From the NCBI GenBank assembly GCA_023512415.1, contig JAILZQ010000015.1, positions 1 through 32,134 of the forward strand: a stretch of 32,134 bases of DNA, in the 5' to 3' direction. Of the stretch, positions 13,947 through 21,074 are shown piece after piece (within the stretch, counting starts at the first letter, position 1; each line of letters starts with the position of its first letter). The translations under genes were made by a program, and so were the position numbers. The stretch comes from Geminicoccaceae bacterium (lineage in GTDB: Bacteria > Pseudomonadota > Alphaproteobacteria > Geminicoccales > Geminicoccaceae). The notes beneath the pieces are model-generated. The model was not told where the DNA came from and searched no databases. It saw only the letters and a program-made list of their open reading frames with translations.

Positions 13947-14648
13947 TCAAACGGTGAGGTGCCGGCGGGCGGCGTCCAGATCGAGGGTGGCGCGATCCCC
14001 CTCGAGGACGATCCGGCCGCGCTCCATGATCGCGATAAGGTCGGCGAGCTCGAGCGCGAAATCGAGATATTGCTCGACCAACAGGATGGCCATCGTGCCG
14101 GCCCGGGCGAGCTCCTTCACGACCCGGCCGATCTCGGCCACGATGTTGGGCTGGATCCCCTCGGTCGGCTCGTCGAGGAGCAGCACCCGGGGCCGTGTGA
14201 CGAGCGCCCGGCCGATCGCGAGCTGCTGCTGCTGGCCGCCCGAGAGGTCGCCGCCGCGCCGCCGCGCCATCTGCTCGAGGATCGGGAAGCGGGCGTAGAC
14301 CTCGGCGAGCGGCAGGGGCTCGTCGCGCCGGCCGCGGAGCGCCGCGTGACCGGTGAGCAGGTTCTCCTCGACCGTGAGGCGGGGGAAGATCTCGCTCCCC
14401 TGCGGCACCGCGGCGAGACCGAGTCGGGCCCGCCTCCAGGGCGGCAGGCCGTCGAGCGGAGCGCCGTCCAAGAGGATGCTGCCGCCGCTCGTCCGTTCGT
14501 GGCCGAGGATGGCCTTCAAGAGCGTGGTCTTGCCGACCCCGTTGCGGCCCAGGAGGCAAGTGATCTTGCCGCGCTCCAGGGCGAGCGAGACGCCGCGCAG
14601 CGTGTGCGAGGCGCCGTAGTGGAGGTGCAGGTCGCGGACCTCGAGCAC
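13947..14648 (-). CDS. urtE: Urea ABC transporter ATPase UrtE
   Basis: Second ATPase of the urea importer, of the LivF-like branch, 233 residues. It has Walker A GRNGVGKTT (34-42), Q-loop VPQGSEIFPRLTVEENL, signature LSGGQ (135-139), Walker B LLLDEP (156-161) followed by TEGIQPNIV, which is characteristic of UrtE, and the H-loop as EQ (LLVEQYLDFA). The start is GTG, 3 bases after the urtD stop. Last gene of the operon. Nearby amino-acid (Liv) ATPases are the main alternative, but the full urtABCDE set settles it. Confidence 0.94.
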   Translation of the reverse strand: MLEVRDLHLHYGASHTLRGVSLALERGKITCLLGRNGVGKTTLLKAILGHERTSGGSILLDGAPLDGLPPWRRARLGLAAVPQGSEIFPRLTVEENLLTGHAALRGRRDEPLPLAEVYARFPILEQMARRRGGDLSGGQQQQLAIGRALVTRPRVLLLDEPTEGIQPNIVAEIGRVVKELARAGTMAILLVEQYLDFALELADLIAIMERGRIVLEGDRATLDLDAARRHLTV

Positions 14649-14651
14649 GGC

Positions 14652-15437
14652 TCAAGAACGCCCCAGATAGACCTCGACCACGGCCGGGTCGGACTGGACC
14701 GCGTCGACCGGACCTTCGGCCAGCACCCGACCCTCGTGCAGGACAGTGACCTTCGCCCCGAGCTCGCGCACGAAGTGCATGTCGTGCTCGACCACGACCA
14801 GGGTGTGGCGGCCCTCGAGGCGGTGGATCAGCTCGGCGGTCTTGGCGGTCTCGGCATCGCTCATGCCGGCCACGGGCTCGTCGAGGAGGACGAGGCGCGG
14901 CTCTTGGACCAAGAGCATGCCGATCTCGAGCCACTGCCGTTGGCCGTGCGAGAGGCGACCGGCCTCCTCCGCGCGGAGCTCGGCCAGGCCCACCGTCTCG
15001 AGCGTCCGCTCGATCCGCTCTTCCGCCGCCGCCTCGAGCCGGCCAGCGAGCAACCGGGCGAGGCTCCAGCCGCCCTGGATCGCGAGCTCGAGGTTCTCCG
15101 CGACCGTGAGCCGGTCGAATACCGTGGGCTTCTGGAACTTGCGGCCGATCCCGAGCCGCGCGATCGCGGTCTCGTCGAGGCTCAGAAGGTCGATCCCACC
15201 TTGGAACAGCACGGTACCGGAATCGGGCCGGGTCTTGCCCGTGATCACGTCCATCATCGTGGTCTTGCCGGCACCGTTCGGGCCGATGATCGTCCGGAGC
15301 TCCCCCTCTTCGAGGACGAGCGAGAGCGAATCGAGGGCTTTGAAGCCGTCGAAGCTCACCGTGACGCCGTCGAGATAGAGGAGGATCTGCGGCTCCAAGA
15401 GCCGGCCGCCCGGCAGGGTGCGCGGGGTCTCAGCCAC
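14652..15437 (-). CDS. urtD: Urea ABC transporter ATPase UrtD
   Basis: First ATPase, LivG-like branch, 261 residues. It has Walker A GPNGAGKTT (52-60), the motif TMMDVITGKTRPDSG, which in UrtD replaces the LivG 'TLFN' form, RLGIGRKFQKPTVF, a modified signature LSHGQRQWLEIGMLL (162-176), Walker B LLDEPVAGMSD and H-loop His218. The start is GTG at 15437, overlapping the end of urtC by 8 bases. Confidence 0.95.
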   Translation of the reverse strand: MAETPRTLPGGRLLEPQILLYLDGVTVSFDGFKALDSLSLVLEEGELRTIIGPNGAGKTTMMDVITGKTRPDSGTVLFQGGIDLLSLDETAIARLGIGRKFQKPTVFDRLTVAENLELAIQGGWSLARLLAGRLEAAAEERIERTLETVGLAELRAEEAGRLSHGQRQWLEIGMLLVQEPRLVLLDEPVAGMSDAETAKTAELIHRLEGRHTLVVVEHDMHFVRELGAKVTVLHEGRVLAEGPVDAVQSDPAVVEVYLGRS

Positions 15438-16554
15438 CGGTCGCCTCCGCCGGTCGAGGGGCGGGCTCGGCCGCGGGCGCGCGCCGCCGCGGCAGCAGCT
15501 CGACGATCCCGACGAGGCCCTTGGGCAACACCAGGGTCACGAGGACGAAGAGCCCACCCAGGACGAAGAGCCAGAGCTCGGGAGCCGCACCGGTGAGCCA
15601 GGTCTTCATGCCGTTGACCAGGAAGGCGCCGAGCACCGGCCCGAGGATCGTGTCGCGGCCGCCGACCGCGACCCAGATGGCGATCTCGATGGAGGCCGCG
15701 GGGCTGAACTCGGAGGGGTTGATGATGCCGACCTGGGGCACGTAGAGGGCGCCGGCGAGCCCGGCGAGCACGGCCGAAAGCGTCCAGACGAAGAGCTTGG
15801 CCCGAAGCGTGTCGTGGCCGAGGAAGCGGGCGCGGGCCTCGCCGTCGCGGATCGCCACGAGCAGCCGGCCCAGGGGCGAGCGCCGCAGATGGATCGCGAC
15901 GGCGAGCGCGAGCAGGAGCAGCACCCCGGTCGCGAGATAGAGCCCGAGCCGGGTGTCGGGTGAGGCGATCGGGAAGCCCAGGATATCTTTGAAGTCGGTG
16001 AGCCCGTTGTTGCCGCCGAAGCCCATGTCGTTGCGGAAGAACGCGAGCATCAGCGCGTAGGTGAGCGCCTGGGTGATGATCGAGAGATAGACCCCGCTCA
16101 CCCGCGAGCGGAAGGCGAGCCAGCCGAACACGAAGCCGAGCGCGCCGGGGACGAGCACGACCATCGCGAGTGCGAAGGGGAACCGGTCGAACCCGTACCA
16201 GTACCAGGGCAATTCCTGCCAGTTCAGGAACACCATGAAGTCGGGCAGGACGGGATGGGCGTAGACCCCGCGCGGGCCGATCTGGCGCATGAGGTACATG
16301 CCCATGGCGTAGCCGCCGAGGGCGAAGAAGGCACCGTGGCCGAGCGAGAGGATGCCGGCCCGGCCCCAAACGAGGTCGAGCGCCACGGCGAGCACCGCAT
16401 AGGCCAGGTACTTGCCGAACAGCGGCACGAGCCGATCCTCGAGGTGGAAGGCCGAGCCTTCCGGCACGAGCCGGTTGAGGACGGGCACGAGCAGGACGGC
16501 GCAGCCGACCAGGACGAGGAGGAGCGCGGGGCGGCCGAGGCCGGCTCGCGCCAT
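15430..16554 (-). CDS. urtC: Urea ABC transporter permease UrtC
   Basis: Inner-membrane LivM-type permease, 374 residues, with about ten hydrophobic segments. UrtC hallmarks are LAVALDLVWGRAGILSLGHGAFFALGGYAMGMYLMRQIG near the N-terminus, NNGLTDFKDILGFPI in the middle, and the ATPase-contact region RLLVAIRDGEARARFLGHDTLRAKLFVW. The C-terminal tail is Ala/Pro-rich and charged. The ATG follows the urtB stop by one base. Confidence 0.95.
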   Translation of the reverse strand: MARAGLGRPALLLVLVGCAVLLVPVLNRLVPEGSAFHLEDRLVPLFGKYLAYAVLAVALDLVWGRAGILSLGHGAFFALGGYAMGMYLMRQIGPRGVYAHPVLPDFMVFLNWQELPWYWYGFDRFPFALAMVVLVPGALGFVFGWLAFRSRVSGVYLSIITQALTYALMLAFFRNDMGFGGNNGLTDFKDILGFPIASPDTRLGLYLATGVLLLLALAVAIHLRRSPLGRLLVAIRDGEARARFLGHDTLRAKLFVWTLSAVLAGLAGALYVPQVGIINPSEFSPAASIEIAIWVAVGGRDTILGPVLGAFLVNGMKTWLTGAAPELWLFVLGGLFVLVTLVLPKGLVGIVELLPRRRAPAAEPAPRPAEATGG

Positions 16555-16555
16555 C

Positions 16556-18166
16556 TCAGGCCTCCGCCGCCCGGCCGCGGAGCGCGAACAGCCCCTGCGG
16601 TCGGCGCTGGATGAAGAGGATGAGGGCCAGGAGCACGAGGATCTTGCCGAGGACCGCCCCGGCCACCGGTTCGAGGAGCTTGTTGACCACCCCGAGCGTC
16701 AGCGCCCCCAAGAAGGTGCCCCAGAGATTGCCGACCCCGCCGAAGACGACGACGATGAAACTGTCGACGATGTAGGACTGGCCGAGGTTGGGGCTCACAT
16801 TGTCGATCTGGGAGAGCGCCACGCCGCCGATCCCGGCGATCCCCGAGCCCAAGGCGAAGGTGAGTGCATCGACCCGCGGCGTGCGGATGCCCATGGTCTC
16901 GGCCATCCGGCGGTTCTGGGTGACGGCGCGGATCTCGAGGCCGAGCCGGGTCGCGCGGACGAGGGCGAGCAGGAGGAGGAAGACGGCGACCGCGAAGAGG
17001 ACGATGACGATCCGGTTGGTGGTGAGCGCGAGGCCCGGGACCGGCTCGACGAAGCCGCTCATCCAGGAGGGGGTCACGACCTCGCGGTTGGTCGCGCCGA
17101 TGCCGAGCCGGACCGCCTGCTGGAGGATCAGCGAGATGCCGAAGGTGGCGAGGAGCGTCTCGAGCGGCCGGCCGTAGAGCCGGCTGATCACGCCGCGCTC
17201 GATCGCCCAGCCGGCCGCGCCGGCCAGGAGGAAGGCGGCGGGAGCGGCGGCGAGCAGCGACCAGTCGAGGGCCCCGGGCAAGAAGGCCCGGAAGGCCTGC
17301 TGCACGGCCCAGGTCGCGTAGGCGCCGAGCATGACCATCTCGCCGTGCGCCATGTTGATGACGCCCATGACGCCGAAGGTCACGGCGAGGCCGATCGCCG
17401 CCAGGAGCAGCACGGAGCCCAAGCTCACCCCTTGGAAGAAGGTCTGGGCGAACTCGAGCAGCCGCAGCCGGGTCTCGACACGGGCGATCGCCGCGTCGAG
17501 CGCCGCGACGGTCGCAGGGTCGACATCGGCCGGGAGCGCCCGACGGGCGGCCTGGAGCTTGCCGAGCACCGCGGGCGACGGGCTCTCGGCGAGTCCGGTG
17601 GCCGCCTCGGCGCGCGCCCCGGGCTCGCCATGGTCCAAGAGGACGGCCGCCCGGGCCCGGGCGAAGGCGGCGCGCACGGCCGGGTCGGCCTCGCGGGCGA
17701 GGGCCGCCTCGAGCGGCTCGAGCGCCGAAGGGTCGGGGCGGGCGAAGAGCTTCTCGGCCGCGGCGAGACGCACCGTGCGGTCCGGGCTCGCGAGGGTGAG
17801 CGAGCCGAGTGCCCCTTCGAGGGTGCGGCGCAGCCGGTTGTTGATGCGGATCGGGCGGAGCGCGCGCGCCTCGACCTCGGCCGGCGCCCCGCTCGCGACC
17901 TCGAGGATCGCCCCCTCGGGCGTGCGCAGGAAGACGGCGCGGTCGGCCTGCCGGGCGAGCAGGCGCCCGTCGAGCAAGCCGCGCAGGACGGGCTCGGCCC
18001 AGGGCACGCCGCTTCGGGCGATCGTCCCGATCGCGGGCTCCATCGCGTCGAGATTGCCGGCGGCGAGGACGGCCAGCGCCTCGCGTGCGGCGGCCTCGTC
18101 CTGGGCGCGCGCGGGGGGTGCCGCGATCGCGGCGAGCAGCGCCAGGAGGACGAGGAGGAGGCGCAT
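16556..18166 (-). CDS. urtB: Urea ABC transporter permease UrtB
   Basis: LivH-type permease with the large extra-membrane N-terminal domain typical of UrtB; 536 residues is the usual size. Residues 1-22 are a signal peptide (ends PPARAQ). Residues ~23-230 are an Ala/Leu/Arg-rich helical, HEAT-like region that should lie in the periplasm. The rest is the membrane domain (SVLLLAAIGLAVTFGVMGVINMAHGEMVMLGAY, TNREVVTPSWMSGF, VVVFGGVGNLWGT). The ATG at 18166 has no clear Shine-Dalgarno and lies 31 bases after a strong hairpin, so expression may be lower than that of urtA. Confidence 0.95.
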   Translation of the reverse strand: MRLLLVLLALLAAIAAPPARAQDEAAAREALAVLAAGNLDAMEPAIGTIARSGVPWAEPVLRGLLDGRLLARQADRAVFLRTPEGAILEVASGAPAEVEARALRPIRINNRLRRTLEGALGSLTLASPDRTVRLAAAEKLFARPDPSALEPLEAALAREADPAVRAAFARARAAVLLDHGEPGARAEAATGLAESPSPAVLGKLQAARRALPADVDPATVAALDAAIARVETRLRLLEFAQTFFQGVSLGSVLLLAAIGLAVTFGVMGVINMAHGEMVMLGAYATWAVQQAFRAFLPGALDWSLLAAAPAAFLLAGAAGWAIERGVISRLYGRPLETLLATFGISLILQQAVRLGIGATNREVVTPSWMSGFVEPVPGLALTTNRIVIVLFAVAVFLLLLALVRATRLGLEIRAVTQNRRMAETMGIRTPRVDALTFALGSGIAGIGGVALSQIDNVSPNLGQSYIVDSFIVVVFGGVGNLWGTFLGALTLGVVNKLLEPVAGAVLGKILVLLALILFIQRRPQGLFALRGRAAEA

Positions 18167-18253: not shown

Positions 18254-19540
18254 TCAGCTACCGCCGCACTTGCCGGTCTTGACGTTGAAGTTGCCGCAGC
18301 TCATCGGCGCCCGCCAATCGGCGATCAGGTCCTTCGAGCCCTCGAGATAGTCGGACCACTCGTCGCCGACGACGAGACCCGGCGTCTGCCAGACGATGCT
18401 GAACTGGCCGTCGGCCTGGATCTCACCGATCAGTACCGGCTTGGTGATGTGGTGGTTCGGCATCATGGCCGAATAGCCACCCGACAGGTTCGGCACCGCG
18501 ACGCCGATCATCGCGTCGATCACCGCGTCCGGGTCGGTCGTGCCGGCCTTCTCGACCGCCTTCACCCACATGTTGAAGCCGATGTAGTGCGCCTCCATCG
18601 GGTCGTTGGTCACGCGCTTCGGGTTCTTGATGAAGGCGTGCCACTTCTCGATGAACTCTTTGTTCTCCGGCGTGTCGACGCTCATGAAGTAGTTCCAGGC
18701 GGCGAGGTGGCCGACCAGCGGCCCGGTGTCGAGCCCGGCCAGCTCCTCCTCGCCGACCGAGAAGGCGACGACCGGGATGTCGGTCGCCTTGATGCCCTGG
18801 TTGGCGAGCTCCTTGTAGAAAGGCACGTTGGCGTCGCCGTTGATGGTCGAGACCACCGCCGTCTTTTTGCCGGCCGAGCCGAACTTCTTGATGTCGGCCA
18901 CGATGGTCTGCCAATCGCTGTGGCCGAACGGGGTGTAGTTGATCATGATGTCCTCGGGCTTCACGCCCTTGGACTTGAGATAGGCTTCGAGGATCTTGTT
19001 GGTCGTGCGCGGGTAGACGTAGTCGGTGCCGGCCAGCACCCAGCGCTCGACCTTCTCCTGCTGCATGAGATAGTCGACCGCCGGGATGGCCTGCTGGTTG
19101 GGCGCCGCGCCGGTGTAGAAGACGTTGCGGCTCGATTCCTCGCCCTCGTACTGCACGGGGTAGAAGAGGATCCCGTTGAGCTCCTCGAACACCGGCAGCA
19201 CCGACTTGCGGCTCACCGAGGTCCAGCAGCCGAACACGGCCGCGACCTTGTCCTTGGCGATGAGCTCGCGCGCTTTCTCGGCGAAGAGGGGCCAGTTCGA
19301 GGCCGGATCGACGACCACGGGCTCCAGTTTCTTGCCGAGGAGCCCGCCCTTCTTGTTCTGCTCCTCGATCAGCATGAGCATGACGTCCTTCAAGGTCGTC
19401 TCGCTGATCGCCATGGTGCCGGAGAGCGAATGGAGGATGCCGACCTTGATCGTGTCGGCGGCGGCGACCGGACCCGCCCAGAGCGCGAGGGCGGCGGCGC
19501 CGGCCAACAGCCAGCGGCGAGAGAGCGCGATCCCGTTCAT
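18254..19540 (-). CDS. urtA: Urea ABC transporter substrate-binding protein UrtA
   Basis: Periplasmic urea receptor, 428 residues. The signal region starts MNGIALSRRWLLAGAAALAL, with a paired-arginine motif compatible with Tat export, and ends near AAAD. The mature part is classic UrtA: TIKVGILHSLSGTMAISE, VFGCWTSVSRKSVLPVFEE, FYPVQYEGEESSRNVFYTGAAPNQQ, and near the C-terminus GGYSAMMPNHHITKPVLIGEI, then a short Cys-containing tail (SCGNFNVKTGKCGGS). The ATG at 19540 has a weak GAGG upstream. First gene of the operon, transcribed from the sigma54-type promoter. No urease or urea amidolyase gene lies in the window, so urea use must be encoded elsewhere. Confidence 0.96.
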   Translation of the reverse strand: MNGIALSRRWLLAGAAALALWAGPVAAADTIKVGILHSLSGTMAISETTLKDVMLMLIEEQNKKGGLLGKKLEPVVVDPASNWPLFAEKARELIAKDKVAAVFGCWTSVSRKSVLPVFEELNGILFYPVQYEGEESSRNVFYTGAAPNQQAIPAVDYLMQQEKVERWVLAGTDYVYPRTTNKILEAYLKSKGVKPEDIMINYTPFGHSDWQTIVADIKKFGSAGKKTAVVSTINGDANVPFYKELANQGIKATDIPVVAFSVGEEELAGLDTGPLVGHLAAWNYFMSVDTPENKEFIEKWHAFIKNPKRVTNDPMEAHYIGFNMWVKAVEKAGTTDPDAVIDAMIGVAVPNLSGGYSAMMPNHHITKPVLIGEIQADGQFSIVWQTPGLVVGDEWSDYLEGSKDLIADWRAPMSCGNFNVKTGKCGGS

Positions 19541-19580
19541 GCCTCGATGCCTCCACCAGGCCTGCTGCGACGCAGCGGTC

Positions 19581-19594
19581 GCACGGTGCCGTGC
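19581..19594. repeat. Inverted repeat over the urtA start region
   Basis: GCACGG-N2-CCGTGC, perfect 6-base arms, runs from the -12 element to the expected transcription start. A second small palindrome (GCTGCG-N1-CGCAGC) lies at 19564-19576 in the leader. It could be an operator or merely a short RNA stem. Confidence 0.35.
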
Positions 19595-19608
19595 AAGCGA
19601 TGTGCCAA
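19592..19608 (-). promoter_or_regulatory. Sigma54 (-24/-12) promoter of urtABCDE
   Basis: The minus-strand sequence TTGGCACATCGCTTGCA matches the sigma54 consensus (TGGCAC-N5-TTGCA), with GG and GC separated by the required 10 bases. Transcription should start near 19581, about 40 bases before the urtA ATG. Sigma54 promoters need an activator ATPase; for a urea importer the natural candidate is NtrC. Confidence 0.82.
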
Positions 19609-19647
19609 GGGCCGTGGCGGCTTGCCGGCGCCTCGGGAGGCGACAGG

Positions 19648-19664
19648 TGCGCGAGAATTGGGCA
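19648..19664. promoter_or_regulatory. Promoter-proximal NtrC-like binding site
   Basis: 17-bp imperfect palindrome TGCGC-N7-GGGCA with the outer TGC/GCA of the NtrC consensus (TGCACC-N5-GGTGCA); 8 of 12 defined bases match. It is centred about 75 bases upstream of the predicted urtA start. Confidence 0.5.
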
Positions 19665-19688
19665 AGTGGGGTCGCACTGTCGCCGCTT

Positions 19689-19705
19689 TGCCCCGATCTT
19701 GGGCA
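19689..19705. promoter_or_regulatory. Promoter-distal NtrC-like binding site
   Basis: 17-bp palindrome TGCCC-N7-GGGCA with perfect 5-base arms, matching 9 of 12 defined NtrC consensus bases. Its centre is 41 bases from the proximal site, close to four helical turns, and about 116 bases upstream of the predicted urtA start. It also lies about 50 bases before the ATG of the divergent dehydrogenase gene. Confidence 0.55.
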
Positions 19706-19751
19706 GCGGATCGAGCTTGACCGCCCGGTGCCGGTCGGCGAGGGAGAGGAC

Positions 19752-21074
19752 ATGGAGAGCATCGCCGATCGGCTGGCCGAACGGATCCGCGACGGGCGTG
19801 TTCGCCTCGGCGTGATCGGGCTCGGCTATGTGGGCCTGCCCTTGGCGCTCACCGCCGCCCGCTCCGGCCTCGAGGTCCTGGGCTTCGACATCGACCGGCC
19901 CAAGGTCGAGGGGCTCAACGAGGGGCGCTCGCCGCTCGCCCACATCGGCGACGCGGCGGTGGCCGCGGCGCGGGCGAGCGGCCGCTTTTCCGCCACCGTC
20001 GAGTTCGCCCGGCTCGGCGAGGTCGACGCGATCGCGATCTGTGTGCCGACCCCGCTCGGCGCCCATCGCGAACCCGATCTATCCTTCGTCGAGGCGACCG
20101 CCCGGCAGATCGCCACGACGCTCCGCGCGGGCCAGCTCGTCGTGCTCGAATCGACCACCTGGCCCGGCACGACCCGCGAGGTCGTGAAGCCGATCCTCGA
20201 GGCGACCGGGCTGCGTTCGGGCGAAGATTTCTTCTTGGCCTTCAGCCCCGAGCGCGAAGACCCGGGCAACCGCGACTTTTCGACCGCGCGGATCCCCAAG
20301 CTCGTGGGCGGCGACGGCGCACGCGCCCGCGATCTGGCGGCCGCGCTCTACGGCCGGTTCGTCGAAAAGGTGGTGCCGGTCGAATCCTGCGAGGTGGCCG
20401 AGGCCGCCAAGCTCACCGAGAACATCTTCCGGGCGGTCAACATCGCCCTCGTCAACGAGCTCAAGCTCGTGTTCACGGCGATGGGGATCGACGTCCACCG
20501 GGTGATCGACGCGGCGGCGACCAAGCCGTTCGGCTTCATGCCGTTCCGCCCGGGCCCGGGGCTCGGCGGCCACTGCATCCCGATCGACCCCTTCTACTTG
20601 ACGTGGAAGGCGCACGAGGTGGGCGTCCACACCCGCTTCATCGAACTCGCGGGCGAGATCAACACCGCGATGCCGCGCTGGGTCGTGGAGCGGCTGGCCG
20701 AGGCGATCGACCGCCGCTTCGGCAAGGGGCTCTCGTCGTCGCGGATCCTGCTGTTGGGCCTGGCCTACAAGAAGAACGTCGACGACGTGCGCGAGAGCCC
20801 GGCCTTCACGATCTGGGAGCTGCTCGAAGCGCGCGGTGCGACGGTCGCCTTCCACGACCCGCACGTACCGGTCGTCCCGCCGACCCGCGAGCATTCGGCC
20901 CTCGCCGGGCGGCGTTCGCTGGCGCTTGATCCCTCGACCCTCGAGGGCTTCGATGCGGTGCTCGTGGTCACCGACCACGACGCCATCGACTGGCGGCTCG
21001 TCGCCGAGCGCGCGCGCCTCGTGGTCGACACGCGCGACCGGCTGGCGCGGGCACCCAACGTCGTCGCGGCCTGA
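19752..21074 (+). CDS. Nucleotide-sugar 6-dehydrogenase, UDP-N-acetylglucosamine type
   Basis: Two-step NAD-dependent oxidation of a UDP-hexose at C6 to the uronic acid, for envelope or exopolysaccharide precursors. 440 residues. It has an N-terminal Rossmann fold with GLGYVGLP (23-30), CVPTPL, ESTTWPGTT, AFSPEREDPG, AEAAKLTENIFRAVNIALVNE with the active-site Lys (~220), and the nucleophile Cys275 in GLGGHCIPIDPFY. The GGHCIPxDP form belongs to UDP-GlcNAc/ManNAc dehydrogenases (WbpA, WecC type), whereas UDP-glucose dehydrogenases have GGSCFPKD. The ATG at 19752 is preceded by GGGAGAGGA. It is divergent from urtA, in a 211-base gap filled mainly by urtA control sites, and starts the three-gene sugar group. 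Confidence 0.88.
   Translation: MESIADRLAERIRDGRVRLGVIGLGYVGLPLALTAARSGLEVLGFDIDRPKVEGLNEGRSPLAHIGDAAVAAARASGRFSATVEFARLGEVDAIAICVPTPLGAHREPDLSFVEATARQIATTLRAGQLVVLESTTWPGTTREVVKPILEATGLRSGEDFFLAFSPEREDPGNRDFSTARIPKLVGGDGARARDLAAALYGRFVEKVVPVESCEVAEAAKLTENIFRAVNIALVNELKLVFTAMGIDVHRVIDAAATKPFGFMPFRPGPGLGGHCIPIDPFYLTWKAHEVGVHTRFIELAGEINTAMPRWVVERLAEAIDRRFGKGLSSSRILLLGLAYKKNVDDVRESPAFTIWELLEARGATVAFHDPHVPVVPPTREHSALAGRRSLALDPSTLEGFDAVLVVTDHDAIDWRLVAERARLVVDTRDRLARAPNVVAA

Follow-up and report, generated by a model that had tools for sequence, protein, structure and literature searches.

Urea uptake in this Geminicoccaceae bacterium is very probably governed by a nitrogen-limitation switch, in which NtrC and sigma54 are predicted to control urtABCDE through two upstream dyads and a -24/-12 element, a reading to which we assign a probability of roughly 0.9 from sequence comparisons. 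The assignment began from a tool-less reading of the raw sequence (the earlier note), which had placed urea uptake within the NtrC regulon. This claim is supported by the ranking of the dyads as the two best sites in the window (the whole stretch of 32,134 nucleotides that was analysed) under a PWM learned elsewhere, by conservation within the genus, by the same box at ntrB and amtB, and by the presence of rpoN and ntrC in the genome. Hence it is very likely that urea uptake in this lineage falls within the NtrC regulon.

In the proposed mechanism, RpoN (sigma54) polymerase would occupy the -24/-12 element just ahead of urtA and wait there in a closed complex. Under nitrogen shortage NtrC, probably phosphorylated by NtrB, would bind the dyads at approximately -75 and -116, on one face of the DNA, there forming an AAA+ oligomer. 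This oligomer would reach the polymerase by DNA looping and use its GAFTGA loop to open the promoter. The opened promoter would then switch on urtABCDE, probably as one five-gene transcript. The binding, phosphorylation, nitrogen response, start site and single transcript in this scheme are all projected from established knowledge of NtrC.

Organisation of the urt locus

The five urt genes lie on the minus strand of the window. The substrate-binding protein of the urea ABC transporter (428 aa) is encoded by urtA (18254..19540; TIGR03407, 579 bits, cut-off 492.75), the permeases by urtB (16556..18166; TIGR03409, 404.3 bits, cut-off 250.3) and urtC (15430..16554; TIGR03408, 429 bits, cut-off 296.2), and the ATP-binding subunits by urtD (14652..15437; TIGR03411, 369.3 bits, cut-off 304.1) and urtE (13947..14648; TIGR03410, 311.1 bits, cut-off 285.8), such that all five exceed the curated cut-offs of the NCBIfam models. 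In a tree of UrtA, the genus falls amid alphaproteobacterial sequences, with the adjoining forks being weak. The divergent neighbour on the plus strand is a nucleotide sugar dehydrogenase gene (19752..21074; TIGR03026, 423.3 bits, cut-off 189.8), and the 211 bases between the start codons of urtA (ATG at 19540) and this gene (ATG at 19752) contain both the -24/-12 element and the two dyads.

The -24/-12 element, TTGGCACATCGCTTGCA (19592..19608, minus strand), is of the sigma54 type and faces urtA, with its GG (19606-19605) and GC (19594-19593) separated by 10 bases. It was found exactly where the earlier note had placed it, pointing at urtA, and its TGGCAC is invariant across the six members of the genus. 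When the window was searched for TGGCACN5TTGCW, allowing up to one mismatch, TTGGCACATCGCTTGCA was the single match, on the minus strand only; the same search of 100 shuffled sequences returned a mean of 0.30 matches, with at least one in 24 of the 100. No site resembling the sigma70 consensus was found between 19300 and 20000. The spacing from the -24 G at 19605 places the likely transcription start (+1) near 19581 on the minus strand, which would leave a leader of approximately 40 bases ahead of the urtA start codon. This putative leader contains a short inverted repeat, GCTGC-GTC-GCAGC (19564..19576, minus strand), that is partly conserved in the genus; the leader, folded as single-stranded RNA, was no better than shuffled sequences (z -0.68).

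Upstream of the -24/-12 element are two NtrC-type dyads of 17 bp each. The proximal dyad, TGCGCGAGAATTGGGCA (19648..19664; minus strand TGCCCAATTCTCGCGCA), is centred at 19656, or approximately -75 relative to the predicted start, and the distal dyad, TGCCCCGATCTTGGGCA (19689..19705; minus strand TGCCCAAGATCGGGGCA), at 19697, or approximately -116. The two palindromes reported in the earlier note, with centres 41 bases apart, are therefore present as described, and this distance corresponds to four helical turns, placing both on the same face of the DNA. They are the only exact occurrences of TGCSCN7GSGCA in the window, and both are exact instances of TGC-N11-GCA. With one mismatch permitted, TGCSCN7GSGCA was not enriched in the window (8 found against 14.75 expected), in keeping with a chance resemblance in GC-rich DNA, with some other promoter driving urtA. 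The bare pattern is consequently weak evidence alone, and the dyads needed better tests.

One such test is their pairing. Two copies of TGCNCN7GNGCA separated by 4-34 bases occur at a single place in the organism's own genome, which is the pair upstream of urtA; across the family, this close-pair pattern matched in 5 of 31 genomes, against 1 of 31 for the backwards control. Further close pairs of NtrC-type dyads were seen by pattern in genome G022 (L160, 3428-3466) and genome G028 (L126; G028:C74:3287-3336).

An NtrC box learned from glnB promoters

A motif was learned from the 260 bases ahead of glnB in 23 genomes of the same family, a training set that included no urtA promoter, by an EM search that was unsupervised and constrained to 17-bp palindromes. 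The resulting palindrome, TGCCCAaaattTGGGCA, had a log-likelihood of 152.8, compared with 29.3-36.8 when the search was run equally hard on eight shuffled sets. Leaving out the organism's own genus (n=19) yielded TGCCCAnaatnTGGGCA, at 120.5 against 29.2-34.8 in equal-effort shuffles. Whether derived with or without the genus, the glnB PWM ranked the proximal dyad first and the distal dyad second among all positions in the window. Under the 23-genome PWM these scored 15.9 and 14.7, with the next-best position in the window at 11.7, and 5 Mb of random sequence matching the window in dinucleotide makeup produced scores this high only 3 and 4 times, respectively. In 18 loci of the same genome that lie away from the urt region (78,337 bases in total, with some overlap), scores of 14 or above were reached only before ntrB and amtB. 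A PWM for the NtrC box of this family is now usable.

Conservation of the urtA upstream region

Dyads were then sought in related and more distant genomes, with thresholds set by hand at 5 for the genus, 6.5 for the family and 9 for named loci from public genomes. In an alignment of urtA upstream regions from the genus, TGGCAC and the later GC were invariant columns in all six members. The string TGGCACN5TTGC was exact in five of the six; the other, G024, has one mismatch and a broken urtA frame. Pairs of dyads 41-42 bp apart were found in five of the six members, with the second dyad of G024 being weak (5.7). The exception is G023, which has kept the -24/-12 element, but has two weaker dyads (10.0 and 10.8) only 30 bp apart; its urtA has no internal stop. 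The alignment of relatives that the earlier note had proposed therefore bore out its prediction of conservation, with the -24/-12 element kept in six of six genomes and the paired dyads in five of six, one of these pairs including a weak site.

The frames of urtA and urtB are both broken in G024, in contrast to that of the divergent sugar dehydrogenase, which is intact (L163, contig C72). That species may be losing its urea transporter, or the draft may contain errors. The -12 of G024 reads TCGC instead of TTGC, and its urtA dyads score low (11.6 as well as the 5.7 noted above), such that it was considered as a natural control, in which a promoter decays together with its genes. This argument was weakened by finding the TCGC form of the -12 in three named loci (L082, L083 and L088), and by the weak dyads of G023, and so was dropped as evidence.

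In the wider family, 14 urtA upstream regions could be compared, with 17 of the 31 genomes unused because the copies in G013 and G029 were cut or N-filled, and the remainder were weaker matches. The -24/-12 element was present with up to one mismatch in 12 of these 14; G026 has two mismatches, and in G001 there was none near urtA.

Named urtA loci from public genomes provided a broader comparison. Of 80 fetched, L089 was skipped as its upstream region was too short, leaving 79. A good -24/-12 element was present in 57 of 79, against 9 of 79 shuffled sequences and 7 of 79 coding stretches; at least one dyad was found in 56 of 79, against 11 shuffled and 5 coding; and at least two dyads in 43 of 79, against none of the 79 shuffled or 79 coding sequences. 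Conversely, 23 of the 79 lacked a dyad and 22 a good -24/-12 element, the latter including, within the stretch read, the Sinorhizobium, Ensifer, Shinella, Agrobacterium and Azospirillum sequences, and those of Rhizobium with the exception of L037. An EM search of 72 named urtA upstream regions, nearly all from Alphaproteobacteria by record title, recovered the palindrome TGCccAAaatTTggGCA, and TGGCACGGcnCTTGCg when the palindromic condition was lifted, these searches being run without a shuffled control. The independent PWM ranking, the conservation seen among relatives and the comparison with controls at the named loci all argue against the dyads being a chance resemblance, as does the failure to find a sigma70-like site at 19300-20000 that might drive urtA in their place, making this explanation extremely improbable.

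Regulators and other Ntr promoters

The earlier note had regarded the absence of rpoN or ntrC as an argument against its reading, and both genes are present in the genome. The rpoN gene was identified by PF04552 on contig C27 (E 2.8e-61), and ntrC by a score of 669.7 bits against a cut-off of 558.6, with its product carrying GAFTGA. In the family, 28 ntrC loci were found, of which three (in G027, G013 and G007) were left out as partial matches; G[AS]FTGA was present in all of the 25 read. The recognition helix, RNTLRKK, was identical in the same 25 of 25, so that no altered helix was visible among these sequences, all of which come from the family.

The frame ahead of ntrC is NtrB-like in G024, as judged by eye, and its start region recurs in the organism's own genome. 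Upstream of the organism's own ntrB (contig C154; L161, 8075-8120) are a strong dyad (16.8) and a weak one (3.9) at a spacing of 29 bp, which stop one base short of the start codon (itself assigned by eye). Among 25 family genomes, 20 spacings of 28-30 bp were counted before ntrB, a recurrence that suggests NtrC autoregulates ntrBC. The organism's own amtB (C20:27621-28793; L128, L157) is preceded by dyads 42 bp apart (15.8 and 12.3) and an imperfect -24/-12 element with two mismatches. Immediately ahead of this amtB, no gene resembling glnK was noticed.

In four relatives from the genus, glnB is preceded by two dyads and a -24/-12 element with one mismatch. The organism's own draft assembly yielded no strong glnB, which is whole in four of the five other genus members and partial in the fifth, and the top-scoring glnA, present in all five others, was likewise absent. 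Since both genes are missing from the assembly, the glnB promoter is readable only in relatives. The genome scan for the same box that the earlier note had proposed was therefore borne out in part: the box was recovered before the organism's own amtB and ntrB, and before glnB in four relatives, and glnA was absent from the assembly. In each of the six genus genomes there was no more than one strong match to PII, along with a weak PII-like one; hence a single PII may serve the genus, as far as gene content indicates.

A real sigma54 promoter might nevertheless be served by a different enhancer-binding protein, with the dyads used by NtrX or another GAFTGA activator. At least two further GAFTGA activators are encoded in the genome, one on contig C51 that scores 348 bits against the ntrC model and another on C50 that scores 316 bits, making candidates available. 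No GAFTGA was found in the NtrX beside ntrC, however, and the motif at the dyads is that which marks the upstream regions of glnB, amtB and ntrB in the family or genus, these being core NtrC targets (PMC5343134, in excerpt). An activator other than NtrC is accordingly very unlikely.

The position of the distal dyad raises a further alternative, in which the dyads also, or instead, serve the divergent sugar dehydrogenase gene. The distal dyad ends 46 bases ahead of the ATG at 19752, and only 10 bases from the start of CTTGAC (19716..19721, plus strand), a candidate -35 of that gene that is invariant in all six genus sequences; NtrC at 19689-19705 could then alter a promoter of this type. The gene pair is also divergent in the five relatives compared. 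Yet in the family it is nitrogen genes that such dyads accompany, the matches to the -24/-12 pattern with up to one mismatch are on the minus strand only, such that none points toward the sugar gene, and the search of 19300-20000 for sigma70-like consensus sites found none. A role at the sugar gene is therefore unlikely, and control of urtABCDE remains the preferred function of the dyads. Separately, visual inspection showed GTCAAG strings, similar to CTTGAC, upstream of the glnB and amtB dyads.

Spacing of the boxes at each promoter

The distance between dyads differs by promoter. At glnB, it was 20 bp in 17 of 23 family genomes; at amtB, it was 41-42 bp in all six members of the genus, one of them weak. 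Alongside those of ntrB and urtA, the spacings at glnB, ntrB and urtA/amtB correspond to approximately two, three and four helical turns, respectively. Across all 59 family spacings of up to 65 bp, which share common ancestry and represent few promoters, the helical phasing was R 0.74-0.77, rising to 0.82-0.85 when off-peak spacings were left out; in the named loci, phasing was weak (R 0.19-0.41).

A tentative extension, to which we would give rather less than an even chance, is that NtrC in this family reads a shifted box, TGCCCA-N5-TGGGCA as opposed to TGCACC-N5-GGTGCA, with each promoter keeping its own spacing, which could set the strength or timing of the response. This promoter-specific spacing, as it appears from few promoters of shared ancestry, is the least familiar part of the system, and the fixed spacing at each promoter is a pattern open to bench testing.

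Comparison with known systems

The NtrC of Rhodobacter capsulatus is described as acting without sigma54, at sites of the form CGCC-N9-GGC, and GCC-N9-GGC is contained within the distal dyad. The TGCCC spelling of the dyads was considered as a local oddity, an idea that was rejected on finding it to be the family-wide glnB motif, with the named urtA upstream regions giving TGCccAAaatTTggGCA. The earlier note had proposed a TGCNC/GGGCA variant of the site; this spelling is real, but is not peculiar to the organism, being near both the family form and that of the named, mostly alphaproteobacterial, urtA upstream regions. Hence the TGCCC/GGGCA spelling is common in relatives, as judged from these motif searches, and differs slightly from the textbook box of Escherichia coli.

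The comparisons that follow draw on excerpts of the cited papers. The E. coli NtrC box is TGCACCAnnnTGGTGCA (PMC8743547), which resembles those described here in its 17-bp palindromic form, opening with TGC and closing with GCA. It differs at positions 4 and 6, where the family glnB motif is mostly TGC[C/T][C/T]A in place of TGCACC. Neither window dyad has the E. coli-type half-sites TGCAC/GTGCA, each showing two mismatches to TGCACN7GTGCA.

Among Alphaproteobacteria, the Sinorhizobium meliloti NtrC motif TGC-N11-GCA has been mapped by DNase footprinting at the NfeR1 promoter (PMC10746234). In that case NtrC acts as a repressor, and the promoter has a sigma70 site, whereas the window dyads lie upstream of a -24/-12 element. 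Caulobacter NtrC was located at glnBA, glnK-amtB and ntrB, and its motif is unlike that of E. coli; this protein has no GAFTGA and reportedly works at sigma70 promoters (PMC10274813, PMC12421884); the NtrC encoded in the genome studied here differs in having GAFTGA. A further paper, PMC4999443, mentions neither NtrC, urt nor urea.

A close likeness is to Bradyrhizobium sp. DOA9, in which urtA-D were strongly down in rpoN mutants, and for which the -24/-12 element listed for urtA-B-C is TGGCATGGTTCTTGC (PMC13207237); the urt genes are the same, and the -24/-12 element has the same form. The arrangement of the dyads differs, as six of the seven Bradyrhizobium sequences have three, spaced 29 and 44 bp apart in five of them, in contrast to the two at 41 bp in the window. 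NtrC regulation of urtABCDEF has also been predicted in Alteromonadales, Oceanospirillales, Rhizobiales and Rhodobacterales (PMC5343134). The general picture of nitrogen control is unchanged: this type of urt control is already known, and the switch looks like an ordinary one for this class of bacteria.
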